Shown here one piece after another: positions 58,951 through 63,624 of a stretch of 64,000 bases of DNA (position 1 is the first letter of the stretch; each line of letters opens with the position of its first letter). The position numbers and the translations under genes were made by a program. Under the pieces are notes generated by a model that was not told the DNA's origin, searched no databases, and saw nothing but the letters and a program-made list of their open reading frames with translations. The DNA lies in assembly GCF_014698305.1 (NCBI RefSeq), contig NZ_JACJST010000008.1, forward strand, positions 124,001-188,000. The letters run 5' to 3'. This DNA is from Anabaena lutea FACHB-196 (GTDB taxonomy: Bacteria; Cyanobacteriota; Cyanobacteriia; Cyanobacteriales; Nostocaceae).

Positions 58951-59138
58951 AATTGATTATTAATTAGAATTAAGAGTATAATAAATAGATATATAGCAGT
59001 TATTGGTTGAGTGAATTACAAATATTGAAGAATGATTTATTTGTTAGATATTAATACCTGTATTCAATATATAAATTTGGTTTATTAAAACTCCATTTTT
59101 ATTTAGATAGTCTCTCTTTGGCAAGTCAATTAACAAAA

Positions 59139-59873
59139 ATGACAGACACATCTACACATAATCAAGATAATTTGACAAATATCTCAAAAATCCTATGGGA
59201 TAAAGTTTTAAAACCTGATAATTCTTGGAAAGATAACCCTAAATGTAGTGAGATACAGCAAAGATTATCATATTTTAACCCTAATCATCTTGATACTCCA
59301 GAGCATATTGATAAAGTTATTAAATGCGTAATTAGAGGAGTGCGTCTTACAGAAGAAGCAATTAATTGGTATGAACCTTCTATTGGAGGTGAAAAACTTA
59401 CCGTATATGATAAATTACGAGGAGTCCAATGGCGACTTGTAATCGCTTATATTGGATTTGAAATTACTACTAAAGCATTAATGAATAATTTTGGGGGAGT
59501 ATTGCCATCAAACGTTATTATTAAATTTATAAAACAGTCTAATCTCCCAAGCTATAATCCACTGATTCCACCAAATCCGAAGAAAAAAGAGAATCTTGAT
59601 AAATGGCTTGCAAAAGATGAAGATGCAATTGCTGAATTCCTGGGAGTAATAAGTCCCAAGGATAAACAACTCATTAAACATTGGATTGTTCAATCTAATT
59701 CTATTTCTTCTTGGGAAGAAGCGGTACAACTTGCTAGATTTTTCAGAAATGCCTCTGCACATGGATTTCTTTCGGCCAAAAAAGTCCAGGATTGGGAACT
59801 TAAGCCGGGTTTATCTATTCTTGCTGATAACTTGGGTGAAATTATGGCTGCTGGACTAAAAAAATTGATTTAG
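59139..59873 (+). CDS. Putative HEPN-like protein of unknown function
   Basis: The 244-residue protein starts MTDTSTHNQDNLTNISKILW. It is helical throughout. Near the C-terminus ARFFRNASAHGFLSAKKV contains R-N-x3-H, the RX4-6H motif of HEPN RNases (about 207-212). A second conserved area is RGVQWRLVIAYIGFEITTKA. HEPN proteins act in toxin-antitoxin and defence systems, but no partner gene adjoins. A TTG at 59118 could start seven codons upstream; ATG preferred. Confidence 0.5.
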   Translation: MTDTSTHNQDNLTNISKILWDKVLKPDNSWKDNPKCSEIQQRLSYFNPNHLDTPEHIDKVIKCVIRGVRLTEEAINWYEPSIGGEKLTVYDKLRGVQWRLVIAYIGFEITTKALMNNFGGVLPSNVIIKFIKQSNLPSYNPLIPPNPKKKENLDKWLAKDEDAIAEFLGVISPKDKQLIKHWIVQSNSISSWEEAVQLARFFRNASAHGFLSAKKVQDWELKPGLSILADNLGEIMAAGLKKLI

Positions 59874-59945
59874 AAAATTACAGCAGATTCCCAACTTCTC
59901 TAAGCAGTTGAAGATATGAATCTTTTCGTTATTAAAAAACAGGTA

Positions 59946-59974
59946 TTGACATTTGCTACCTAACTATTTAATAT
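59946..59974 (+). promoter_or_regulatory. Promoter A for small RNA unit 1
   Basis: TTGACA (59946-59951), 17-bp spacer, TAATAT (59969-59974). The spacer TTTGCTACCTAACTATT is nearly the same as in promoter B, so the conserved block exceeds the -35/-10 boxes alone. Confidence 0.75.
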
Positions 59975-59980
59975 ATAAAT

Positions 59981-60225
59981 TATGTATATAAAACCAACTT
60001 GTAGAGACGAGTATGGCTTAAAACGGATTGATCTACCTGAAAGGGGCATCATAATTATTCCGAATATATACATACTACATAAAACTTAGAATCTAAGTTT
60101 TAAGAATACACAGTGAACTCATGGCATCAAACTTTTTGCCCACTGTGTATTTCCCATAGCTTTACTAAAAATTTGTGAATAAAAAGATACCTGACTGCTT
60201 AGAAAAGTCGGGTATCTGAGTTTTT
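59981..60225 (+). ncRNA. Candidate small RNA unit 1
   Basis: Predicted transcript from about 59981 to the terminator at 60185-60225. It contains three hairpins: AAAACTTAG-AAT-CTAAGTTTT (60081-60101); ATACACAGTG...CACTGTGTAT, 10 bp perfect with a 25-nt loop (60106-60150); and AGATACCTGAC...GTCGGGTATCT followed by GAGTTTTT (terminator). The second hairpin presents the same GAACTCATGGCATCAAAC segment as unit 2. Transcription could also end at the first hairpin. Confidence 0.55.
60185..60225 (+). terminator. Terminator of small RNA unit 1
   Basis: AGATACCTGAC (60185-60195) pairs with GTCGGGTATCT (60207-60217) with one G-U pair; GAGTTTTT follows. Confidence 0.8.
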
Positions 60226-60249
60226 GGCGCTATGTTGAAAAAATAGATA

Positions 60250-60278
60250 TTGACGTTTGCTATTTAACTGTTTATAAT
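60250..60278 (+). promoter_or_regulatory. Promoter B for small RNA unit 2
   Basis: TTGACG (60250-60255), 17-bp spacer TTTGCTATTTAACTGTT, TATAAT (60273-60278). A near-perfect sigma70-type promoter about 140 bp upstream of xisH, but followed by a terminator. Confidence 0.82.
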
Positions 60279-60283
60279 TATTA

Positions 60284-60348
60284 GTTGACGAAAGTACGGT
60301 GAACTCATGGCATCAAACATAGTAGCCGCCGTACTTTCTTTGTCTTTT
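60284..60348 (+). ncRNA. Candidate small RNA unit 2 (about 65 nt)
   Basis: Predicted transcript from about 60284. A perfect 10-bp stem GAAAGTACGG (60290-60299) / CCGTACTTTC (60329-60338) encloses a 29-nt loop starting GTGAACTCATGGCATCAAAC, and TTTGTCTTTT follows. So most of the RNA is one terminator-like hairpin with a large, conserved, exposed loop. The loop matches unit 1 while the stem differs entirely, which supports a selected RNA structure. Confidence 0.65.
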
Positions 60349-60420
60349 AATCAGAAATTAAATAAGTAAATAGCTTCAGTTAGAATAACAGCATTAGTGT
60401 AAAAGTGGACGCATGATGAA

Positions 60421-60837
60421 ATGTCCAGAAAAGACATCTTCCATGATTTAGTCAAAGATGCTCTCAGTCAAGACGGTTGGACTATCTCTCATGATCCTCT
60501 GCACTTAAGTATTGGCAATTTGAATATTCAGATTGATTTAGGGGCTGAATGTCTGATTGGTGCAGAGAAAGATCACCAAAAAATCGCTGTTGAAGTGAAA
60601 AGCTTCCTCAGAGCCTCAAAAATTACAGATTTCTATGGTGCTTTGGGACAATATCTATCTTACAAAATTGCCCTACAGGAAAATGAACCAGAACGCATAT
60701 TATATCTAGCAGTTCCCGATTCAACATATCAGTCATTATTTGGAGAAGTTCTCATCCAAAAAGTCCTACAAAACTATCCTGTTAAACTAGTTGTCTATGA
60801 TGAAGTAACAGAGGTAATAAAATTATGGATAAATTAA
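60421..60837 (+). CDS. xisH: XisH-type excision-controlling factor
   Basis: XisH was described as a factor needed with XisF and XisI for excision of the fdxN element during heterocyst differentiation in Anabaena. The 138-residue protein starts MSRKDIFHDLVKDALSQDGW. It has a PD-(D/E)XK-like fold motif (ADLGAEC-type start with AVEVKSF, about 58-64). It overlaps xisI by 13 bp. Many cyanobacteria carry several xisHI pairs away from any excision element; no xisF or fdxN element is in this window. Confidence 0.93.
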   Translation: MSRKDIFHDLVKDALSQDGWTISHDPLHLSIGNLNIQIDLGAECLIGAEKDHQKIAVEVKSFLRASKITDFYGALGQYLSYKIALQENEPERILYLAVPDSTYQSLFGEVLIQKVLQNYPVKLVVYDEVTEVIKLWIN

Positions 60838-61160
60838 ATTACTATCGCCAATGTTTGCGAGAATTTCTCACCGAATACGCCAGCTACGGCTCAGAAGATC
60901 AAAATATGGAAACCCAATTGATCTTTGATACAGAAAATGATCATTACCTTTTACTACGCACTGGTTGGGATAAAAAACGCCGAATTCATTCCTGTATATT
61001 TCATTTTGATATCAAAGATGGAAAAATCTGGCTTCAGGAAAATAACACAGATATTGATGTTGGTGAAGAACTAGAAGAAATGGGAATATCTAAAAAAGAA
61101 ATTGTCATTGGTTTTCATTATCCTTCACTGAGGCAACATTCAGAATACGCTGTTTCTTAA
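60825..61160 (+). CDS. xisI: XisI-type excision-controlling factor
   Basis: The 111-residue XisI protein shows LNYYRQCLREFLTEYASYGS, ENDHYLLLRTGWDKKRRIHSC (in parts), and the C-terminal IVIGFHYPSLRQHSEYAVS typical of the family. Presumed partner of XisH, with overlapping reading frames indicating coupled translation. Its molecular role is unknown; recent views place xisHI pairs among accessory or toxin-antitoxin-like genes. Confidence 0.93.
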   Translation: MDKLNYYRQCLREFLTEYASYGSEDQNMETQLIFDTENDHYLLLRTGWDKKRRIHSCIFHFDIKDGKIWLQENNTDIDVGEELEEMGISKKEIVIGFHYPSLRQHSEYAVS

Positions 61161-61212: not shown

Positions 61213-61617
61213 ATGCTTACTGAAACTGTTACACTACAAATACCCGAAATTATCTATCAACGGTTAGTCAATACCGCTCATGCTACTCAACGTCCTTTAG
61301 AAGAAGTCATGCTTCATGCTTTACAAGTGGGTAGTCCACCAGCATGGGATGATGTACCAGAGGAATTTCAAGCAGAACTTGCAGCTTTGGATAAGTTAGA
61401 TGATAATATTCTCTGGCAAATTTTCCATAGCCAGAAAACAGGCGTAGACATGGAAGAATATAATATCTTACTAGAGAAAAATTCTAGTGGTACATTGACA
61501 GAGACAGAAAGATTAAATTTAATATCTCTCCGACACGAAGCAGATCTTTTTATGTTGCGTAAAGCCCAAGCCGCAGTTTTACTTCGTTGGCGAGGATCTA
61601 GTTTACCAAATCCTTAA
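61213..61617 (+). CDS. Hypothetical protein, possible antitoxin-like N-terminus
   Basis: The 134-residue protein begins with a ribbon-helix-helix-like strand and helix (MLTETVTLQIPEIIYQRLVN) and an EEVMLHALQVG helix. A longer helical C-terminus (LTETERLNLISLRHEADLFMLRKAQA) follows. Similar proteins occur in filamentous cyanobacteria. No toxin adjoins in the same orientation; the neighbouring parE is convergent, with the stop codons overlapping by 4 nt. Confidence 0.6.
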   Translation: MLTETVTLQIPEIIYQRLVNTAHATQRPLEEVMLHALQVGSPPAWDDVPEEFQAELAALDKLDDNILWQIFHSQKTGVDMEEYNILLEKNSSGTLTETERLNLISLRHEADLFMLRKAQAAVLLRWRGSSLPNP

Positions 61618-61916
61618 ATCTCGGATTCAGAAAACAAAGATTCAAGATTACGATATCCATTAACTACTCGAATAATTTCTACATCATCTTTTATCAACCG
61701 ATAGAAAATAATATAAGGATTTACAGATATTCCTCGCAATTCTGGTGATAGTTCAGCGTAACTACGACCCATATTAGGAAATTGGACTAAAGTTTGACAT
61801 TTATTTTCTATTGAATTTAAAAATTCAGTTGCAGAATCTAAATTGAAATTGGATAAATACTCACAAATTTCATTTATATCTTCAATTGCTTGATCTGTTA
61901 AACTGTAATTACTCAT
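61614..61916 (-). CDS. parE: ParE/RelE-family toxin
   Basis: The 100-residue protein matches the ParE/RelE toxin family: MSNYSLTDQAIEDINEICEY, QFPNMGRSYAELSPELRGI (RS..EL motif), and the conserved IIFYRLIKDDVEIIRVVNGYRNLESLF. Toxins of this family poison gyrase (ParE) or cleave mRNA (RelE). Its ATG overlaps the stop of the antitoxin gene by 4 nt, so translation is coupled. Confidence 0.9.
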   Translation of the reverse strand: MSNYSLTDQAIEDINEICEYLSNFNLDSATEFLNSIENKCQTLVQFPNMGRSYAELSPELRGISVNPYIIFYRLIKDDVEIIRVVNGYRNLESLFSESEI

Positions 61917-62185
61917 TGCAAAGATTCACCTTTTTGGGCGAGTTTTTCTCGCAATATTGCAAAAGCAACTTCACCAGCAGTCAATTGTCCCCTATTAGCT
62001 TGTTCAATACCCACAGCTACTTTTTGACGGGTTTCTTCTAACCATTGTTCATAATGTTTATCTCTTTCTTCTAATAATTGCAAAGCTGCTACAATTACCT
62101 GATAGGCATTTTCATATTTACCACTTTGCAATTTGGATTGAATCAACTGTTCTTGTTCCGGTTGAAGGCTAATATTCATAGTCAT
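61913..62185 (-). CDS. parD: ParD-like antitoxin
   Basis: The 90-residue protein has an N-terminal ribbon-helix-helix (MNISLQPEQEQLIQSKLQSGKYENAYQVIVAALQLL in parts) and a C-terminal toxin-binding tail. It is encoded directly ahead of parE with an ATGA overlap, the standard TA order. It would neutralise ParE and repress the operon. The alternative ATG two codons in gives the same core. Confidence 0.9.
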   Translation of the reverse strand: MTMNISLQPEQEQLIQSKLQSGKYENAYQVIVAALQLLEERDKHYEQWLEETRQKVAVGIEQANRGQLTAGEVAFAILREKLAQKGESLQ

Positions 62186-62301: not shown

Positions 62302-63624
62302 ATGACACAACAACCGATACAAGTAATAGGCGGTGGACTGGCAGGAACAGAAGCAGCATGGCAAATAGCCCAAGCCGGCGTGCCCGTAATTCTCCACGAG
62401 ATGCGCCCTAAACGCTTCAGTCCTGCCCATCATACGGAAAATTTAGCAGAATTGGTCTGTAGTAACTCCTTCGGTGCTATGGCAAGCGATCGCGCGGCAG
62501 GATTATTACATGAAGAATTACGTCAACTTGGTTCTATCATCATCGCTAAAGCTGATGAACACGCAGTCCCTGCCGGTGGGGCTTTAGCGGTAGACAGAGG
62601 ACAATTTGGGGAAGACTTAACCCAAACTTTAGCAAATCATCCTTTAATTGATTTCCGACGAGGAGAAGTGACAGCAATTCCTGAAGGTATTGTAGTATTG
62701 GCTAGTGGTCCTTTAACAAGTCCCGATTTATCCGCAGATTTACAGCGTTTTACCGGGATGGAATATCTCAATTTCTTTGATGCTGCTAGTCCGATTATTT
62801 TAGGAGATTCTATTAATAAAGATATTGCTTTTATGGCTTCCCGCTATGACAAAGGTGAAGCAGCATATCTGAATTGTCCCATGAATAAAGAGCAGTATTT
62901 ACATTTTTGGTCAGAATTACGTCAAGCAGAACAAACAGAATTAAAAGACTTTGAGAAAGAAACAGCGAAATTTTTTGAAGCTTGTTTACCAATTGAAGAA
63001 ATGGCTCGAAGAGGGGAAGATACCATGCGTTATGGTCCCCTGAAACCAGTGGGTTTATCAGATCCTCGCACCGGAGAACGCAACTATGCGGTAATTCAAT
63101 TGCGTCAAGAAGATAAAGCCGGTCAACTTTGGAATATGGTAGGATTCCAAACTAATTTGCGGTGGGGTGAACAAAAACGAGTTTTTCAAATGATACCTGG
63201 TTTGGAAAAAGCCGAGTTTGTCAGATTAGGAGTAATGCACCGCAATACTTTTTTAAATGCACCCCAGTTAATGTCTGCAAGTTTGCAATTTAAAGAACGT
63301 CCAACTTTATTAGCAGCAGGACAATTAATAGGAACAGAAGGTTACACCGCTGCATCTGCGGGAGGTTGGTTAGCGGGAACAAATGCTGCACGGTTGGCTT
63401 TAGGAAAAGAACCGCTAATTTTACCTGTAACAACCATGATGGGGGCATTATTTGAGTTTATTAGATCCGCTGCACCTAAGCATTTTCAACCGATGGCTCC
63501 TAATTTTGGCATTGTCCCAGATTTGGGTGTAAGAATCAAGAGTAAACCGGAGAAATATGGACGTTACCGCGATAGATCATTAGCAGATTTAGCCAGCTGG
63601 AAAACGGAAAATTTAGCTGTTTAA
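62302..63624 (+). CDS. trmFO: Folate/FAD-dependent tRNA (uracil-54-C5) methyltransferase
   Basis: TrmFO makes 5-methyluridine at position 54 of tRNA using methylene-THF and FADH2. The 440-residue protein has an N-terminal FAD motif [13 protein letters not shown] (8-20), the [10 protein letters not shown] block (about 53-62) and [14 protein letters not shown] (about 354-367). It is full length. Divergent from the ParDE operon, and downstream lies a STRR repeat. Confidence 0.97.

Follow-up and report, generated by a model that had tools for sequence, protein, structure and literature searches.

The 64,000-nucleotide stretch of the Anabaena lutea FACHB-196 genome analysed here (the window) contains, on its plus strand, an open reading frame (ORF, 59118–59873) for a HEPN-like protein and, directly 3' of it, two RNA hairpins that share an identical segment (60104–60152 and 60290–60338). 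With a probability of about 0.58, we read this arrangement as a HEPN ribonuclease with its cognate non-coding RNA (ncRNA), the RNA acting as an antitoxin. The more general statement, that the HEPN-like protein and the hairpin RNAs are associated with each other, is very probable, and the neighbouring ORF is the likely reason for the hairpins. At the level of sequence, the basis of this putative module is demonstrated by the HEPN motif of the protein, the position of the promoters, the closing stems with their covariation, and the co-occurrence of gene and RNA in the family. A preliminary description of the hairpins had taken them for candidate tandem small RNAs (sRNAs), comparable to NsiR1, with a loop that is probably the binding site.

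The protein is translated from TTG at 59118 (251 amino acids) or from ATG at 59139 (244 amino acids), and the sequence RNASAH is found near its C terminus. The catalytic motif of the HEPN superfamily (Rx4-6H) has an arginine, a polar residue next to it and a histidine separated from the arginine by 4 to 6 residues, the polar one included. By this definition the protein carries the motif: its RN-x3-H, a signature of HEPN ribonucleases, consists of R203, N204 and H208 (numbering of the 244-residue form), and all three are invariant in 12 of 12 aligned members. The superfamily has been the subject of a family review (PMC3710099). The AlphaFold2 model, with a mean predicted local distance difference test score (pLDDT) of 86.8, is almost wholly helical; Foldseek found no match at E 0.001 in PDB and BFVD, and a sequence search of PDB gave none at E 1. 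The protein is unannotated; no family in Pfam, NCBIfam or PADLOC scored above its cut-off, and Abi_2, which we take to be PF07751, is absent from the Pfam families matched by the 12 members at E up to 1. Distant blastn in plasmids, like tblastn in plasmids and phages, had no match at E 1e-5, and a protein alignment search of viral contigs recognised 0 relatives among 12 pattern matches.

Two promoters with 17-bp spacing, as given in the preliminary description, are located behind the ORF: promoter 1 (TTGACA-17-TAATAT, 59946–59974), which begins at nucleotide (nt) 73 past the stop codon, and promoter 2 (TTGACG-17-TATAAT, 60250–60278). The assignment of one promoter to each hairpin unit holds for promoter 2, which stands before hairpin 2, but not for promoter 1, since hairpin 1 starts ~130 nt beyond it and a separate stem-loop (59981–60074; 10-bp stem TATGTATATA/TATATACATA, 74-nt loop) begins 6 nt past its -10 box. 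Unit 1 has 12 pairs and a 25-nt loop, unit 2 has 10 pairs and a 29-nt loop, and the perfect 10-bp stem ascribed to each of them is present (ATACACAGTG/CACTGTGTAT in one hairpin and GAAAGTACGG/CCGTACTTTC in the other). The segment common to the stem exit and loop of both units is likewise real: the 20-mer GTGAACTCATGGCATCAAAC occurs at 60113–60132 and 60299–60318, with no other match in the window within 3 mismatches and 0 in 100 shuffles. Its 19-mer core was found in the whole genome at the two hairpin sites and at one other site with 3 mismatches. Both hairpins fold better than 200 of 200 dinucleotide shuffles (z-scores of -4.96 and -5.11), and the two look selected. Behind unit 1 lies a hairpin resembling an intrinsic terminator (60185–60225; -17.9 kcal/mol for 60185–60230, GAGTTTTT after the stem), which is a member of a repeat dispersed in the family. 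Among the matches listed (114 of 145 family genomes with a match), most land on the stretch 60156–60228. No named RNA family was recognised in the preliminary description, and none was found here: neither the window nor 8 related loci had an Rfam match that reached the gathering score, and in 59880–60430 no family exceeded its gathering score with E up to 10.

The same RNA pair, with the same surroundings, is present in one genome of the same genus (G458) and in one of the same family (G058). The starts of the two cores are 186 nt apart in the window, 187 nt in G458 and 185 nt in G058, and the shared segment is invariant across the three genomes except for its last base in unit 1 of G058. In an alignment of six sequences, two per genome (A2), from which the structure itself was chosen, 97.2% of the cells in 12 pairs are paired and 5/12 pairs are altered on both sides. 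The covariation score of 0.428 was reached by 0 of 500 shuffles, and every measure dropped when the partner was shifted by 1 to 3 columns. Such an almost invariant loop with covarying stems supports the selected RNA structure that had been proposed, and the orthologous loci of G458 and G058 keep both stem pairing and loop identity; as judged from these alignments, selection on the structure is demonstrated in the lineage of the window. The view that the two stems are unrelated has to be given up, however. They align without internal gaps in A2 and are nearly identical in G058 (ATACACGGTG and ATATACGGTG), and therefore the stems of both units are homologous, having diverged with compensating changes. 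Both the window's genome and G458 have an intact HEPN-like ORF, whereas G058 has only a remnant in which the match stops before the motif. The promoter 1 region of G458 contains an insertion relative to the window.

These comparisons also bear on two other explanations. If the hairpins were leader elements of the downstream genes, here xisH-xisI, one would expect what is seen in the window, where hairpin 2 lies ~80 nt upstream of xisH (PF08814) and is followed by no strong terminator. However, xisHI is not downstream of the hairpins in G458, and in G058 a fragment of xisH is fused to the next gene, yet both hairpins are retained; the genes downstream of comparable units differ between species and are unrelated elsewhere. 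Because the downstream genes differ while the hairpins stay, the RNAs are hardly leaders, and we consider this explanation very unlikely. Even less credible is that the units encode small proteins, although the shared segment contains an ATG from which MASNFLPTVYFP and MASNIVAAVLSLSFNQKLNK could be read and the reading frame exists in 6/6 copies across the three genomes: those of unit 1 stop at 12, 20 and 12 codons, the C-terminal part of that of unit 2 differs in G458, and the changes track stem pairing.

Promoters and stems behind the gene were also found in distant relatives. Eight HEPN-like members, marked by RN-x3-HGF, form one clade, set apart from the rest by a branch supported at 99/97; 5/8 of their loci could be named by identical 3' flanks (Okeania sp. 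SIO2B3, Okeania sp. SIO2F4, a Trichodesmium metagenome-assembled genome, Lyngbya aestuarii and Symploca sp. SIO1C2). A sigma-70-like promoter (TTGAC-type, spacing 16–18, at most 2 mismatches to TATAAT) starting at most 90 nt past the stop codon was found at 8/8 clade loci, in 0/15 members outside the clade and in 6/310 control 3' flanks, the controls being uncurated ORFs of at least 100 amino acids from the window and fetched loci, some near the loci studied. All eight clade promoters start at nt 16–75 past the stop codon. The rule had been loosened from a stricter one that required A and T in the -10 box, under which promoter and stem were found together at 4/8 clade loci and 0/143 controls; three clade loci failed that rule at the -10 box, and G458 failed at the stem. 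A promoter combined with a helix score of at least 8 was observed at 7/8 clade loci versus 2/292 controls, and with a score of at least 9 at 6/8 versus 0/292, a helix alone being present in 33/292 controls. The helices following the clade promoters are 8–13 bp long in 7/8 cases, the scored one in the window being the 59981–60074 stem behind promoter 1, not hairpin 1. Only promoter 1 of G458 lacks such a helix; in this genome hairpin 2 follows the second promoter. Two promoters were seen at 4/8 clade loci (window, G458, Trichodesmium and Okeania SIO2F4), the second one of SIO2F4 being weak (TTGAGA) and spotted by eye.

In other genera, units were located by inspecting the sequence beside the gene, not by free search, and 15 hairpins from 9 genomes, with arms picked by hand, have 8–14 contiguous pairs. 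Five units of Okeania and Trichodesmium can be placed in one register, with pairing in 42/45 cells and changes on both sides at 5/9 positions outside a CCC/GGG core, where two of the five units are identical. Folding z-scores behind 13 promoters range from -1.28 to -4.96. The promoter spacers of five loci, two of which come from related genera, are more alike than shuffled ones (0/5000), and this likeness suggests one ancestral RNA gene behind the clade units. Across genera, the promoter position and the closing stem are kept, but loop similarity is not significant; GGCA..AAA, seen by eye as a possible loop motif of the whole family, failed shuffling. A protein partner may account for this constancy of promoter and stem, together with the unlike loops, better than a loop that binds mRNA. 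Some loops of the Trichodesmium and Okeania units (L089 2347–2500; first unit of L088 and L090) carry extra inverted repeats, one of which resembles an inserted miniature element, and the unit loop may tolerate insertions.

Relatives of the RNA were sought with a model (R1) in 217 genomes of the family: strong matches were obtained in 3/217 genomes, namely that of the window, G458 and G058, and in none of the other 214. The profile of the HEPN-like protein matched in 19/217 genomes, and a gene of the clade type or its remnant occurs in the R1-positive three only. Since these are the same three genomes, RNA and HEPN-like gene co-occur in the family. The other profile-matching family genomes show RN-x3-HGA, with the exception of an untypable C-terminal fragment in G402 (L136); this fragment was not counted, nor was an N-terminal one in G371 (L098), likewise untypable, and the match in G138 is doubtful (E 7.8e-4, within a long unrelated ORF). 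In the other three genomes of the window's genus that were examined (G309, G365 and G447), neither the hairpins nor the HEPN-like ORF were found. Another 8 family genomes gave weak R1 matches (E 0.037–0.70) that are probably due to chance; one of them resembles an ordinary gene start, and a second is a long hairpin of unrelated kind. The highest-scoring match (L078 1501–1556 in G210; 26.7 bits, E 0.037) is a 12-pair AU-rich hairpin with a loop of the 25-nt class, and it is also regarded as chance. The exact 19-mer had 0 matches in genome contigs and 0 in viral contigs. With at most 2 mismatches, the loop core was matched in 21 of 388 genomes of the order, and with 0–1 mismatch only in the window's genome and G058. 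No such closing stem accompanied the 2-mismatch matches at the 12 plus-strand loci viewed, a check that left out L004, L005, L008, L010, L020, L022 and L025, as well as L003 from the search of the whole genome; the minus-strand loci L006, L012, L024, L027 and L029 were covered by a model search alone, with a best score of 15.9 bits (L012).

In light of these data, the idea of free-standing trans-acting sRNAs, whose shared loop would pair with mRNAs, appears improbable. Individual promoters, tandem copies, an almost invariant loop and covarying stems would all suit it, as would the persistence of the RNA in G058 beside a broken HEPN gene. Against it, comparable units follow the HEPN-like gene throughout the clade, 214/217 family genomes have no strong R1 match, and the loops are not detectably alike across genera, which a protein partner explains better. 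NsiR1 itself has mRNA targets and is described as an array of 12 copies that lies upstream of hetF and uses DIF1 promoters (PMC9045159). The likeness is that heterocystous cyanobacteria carry sRNA copies in tandem, each with its own promoter; here, by contrast, two units stand behind a HEPN-type gene or its remnant in three genomes, with plain sigma-70-like TTGAC-17-TA promoters. The ORFs neighbouring the hairpins are Uma2, the HEPN-like ORF, XisH, XisI and ParDE, with no hetF among them. In type I toxin-antitoxin systems the RNA is antisense to the toxin mRNA; the RNAs here are not cis-antisense to the HEPN gene, because they lie downstream on the same strand. For pairing with the 20-nt loop, the start region of the HEPN gene ranks 59 of 60 among the ORFs of the window, and so the loop gives no sign of antisense control.

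HEPN-MNT modules are toxin-antitoxin pairs. The locus resembles them in its putative HEPN ribonuclease, but the Pfam scan of the neighbouring ORFs, which gave Uma2, XisH, XisI and ParDE, returned no MNT. A parallel in working mode would be AbiF of Clostridioides difficile, an Abi_2-family toxin; the RNA that neutralises it, RCd22, contains two abiF motifs and has its SigA promoter 5' of the gene (PMC12373285). Both would share a gene for a HEPN-type toxin with a short structured ncRNA next to it, a sigma-70-type promoter and two copies of the RNA motif (same source). The differences are that the RNA here lies 3' of the gene behind its own promoters, whereas the abiF RNA is 5' and cotranscribed, and that neither an Abi_2 match in Pfam (12 members) nor an RF03085 match (window and 8 related loci; E up to 10 in 59880–60430) was obtained. 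Type III toxin-antitoxin systems (ToxIN, CptIN, TenpIN) likewise combine a protein toxin with a repeated small structured RNA (PMC12373285). There, however, the array precedes the toxin gene and is cotranscribed with it, whereas the units here stand 3' of the gene behind their own promoters at 8/8 clade loci, start 186 nt apart instead of head to tail, and accompany a protein with no Pfam family above cut-off. On our best reading of this comparison, no homology to AbiF or type III systems is detectable, though the working mode would be alike.

From these results, a two-part module may be proposed, composed of a HEPN-fold endoribonuclease (59118–59873) and structured small RNAs made directly 3' of it from their own promoters. 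Transcription would yield promoter 1 RNA with the stem-loop, hairpin 1 and the terminator-like hairpin, and then promoter 2 RNA with hairpin 2. The folded RNA would bind the HEPN protein and keep the ribonuclease inactive, as in AbiF and type III systems; if the RNA were lost, as might happen when host transcription is shut off by a phage, the freed ribonuclease would cut RNA and growth would stop. With promoters of its own, the RNA would stay in excess over the mRNA, and tandem copies would increase its dose. Alternatively, the RNAs could be partners of the ribonuclease that do not inhibit it, either guiding or activating it, as CRISPR RNA does in Cas13, or serving as bait that a factor of the invader destroys or binds. 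The same coupling in promoter, clade and helix counts would be expected then, and an exposed loop, almost invariant in the window's lineage and different in other genera, would fit a recognition element; AbiF is described as the root of Cas13, which derives from AbiF and its RNA (PMC12737573). Nevertheless, both copies in the window's genome have one common loop, unlike a set of guides, and RNA beside the broken gene of G058 fits a leftover antitoxin better than a guide without its enzyme. We therefore regard a guide or bait as unlikely compared with an antitoxin.

More tentatively, the module might mean that RNA control of HEPN ribonucleases arose a second time and independently, in a form that has no relation to AbiF and Cas13 and has been met only in cyanobacteria to date. 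A hairpin RNA with a transcript of its own would then be sensor or guide of the enzyme, its loop specialised in each lineage and its closing stem and promoter position fixed. In the papers cited above, the RNA-neutralised HEPN toxin is AbiF, and a non-Abi_2 family with another RNA and gene order would tell whether HEPN enzymes came under the control of RNA on several occasions. The reading also joins a cyanobacterial protein family and an RNA, both unannotated, into a defined pair, which would offer a small, testable system. None of the papers listed in literature searches describes such a pair in its title or the opening of its abstract, a weak sign of novelty given that most subscription journals and part of the matching papers lie outside this coverage; the examined text of a Nodularia spumigena transcriptome study (PMC3610870) contains nothing on the locus.

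Several observations concern HEPN-like genes at other loci. A TCCGGAT stretch is conserved 5' of out-of-clade genes (L106, L107, L109, L110, L111 and L114), with no consensus fold. G458 has a second HEPN-like paralogue of the RNATAHGA type directly before an HsdM_N gene of type I restriction (L137 2241–2550). Two divergent HEPN-like genes adjoin a small HTH_3 gene, on the same strand in L094 (1101–1340) and on the opposite one in L100 (2270–2515), and the HTH_3 product is a possible protein partner in place of RNA; at L094 a 16-nt inverted repeat lies immediately 3' of the HEPN-like gene.

Downstream of the module, the xisH-xisI pair occupies 60421–61160 of the window, and xisI is kept with another neighbour in G309; this stretch is a fast-rearranging spot before the ORF at 62302, presumably trmFO. 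A ParDE-type toxin-antitoxin pair lies at 61614–62185. Type II toxin-antitoxin genes are found near several loci, including ParDE in the window and ParE with a sub-threshold Phd match by L093. L092 and L061 are adjoined by DUF433/DUF5615, which we take to be a toxin-antitoxin-like pair. Finally, ACTAATGGCATCAAA (L084 and L028, near 1501) lies within sequences of which G531 and G174 have five copies each; they may be mobile elements that have nothing to do with the hairpins.
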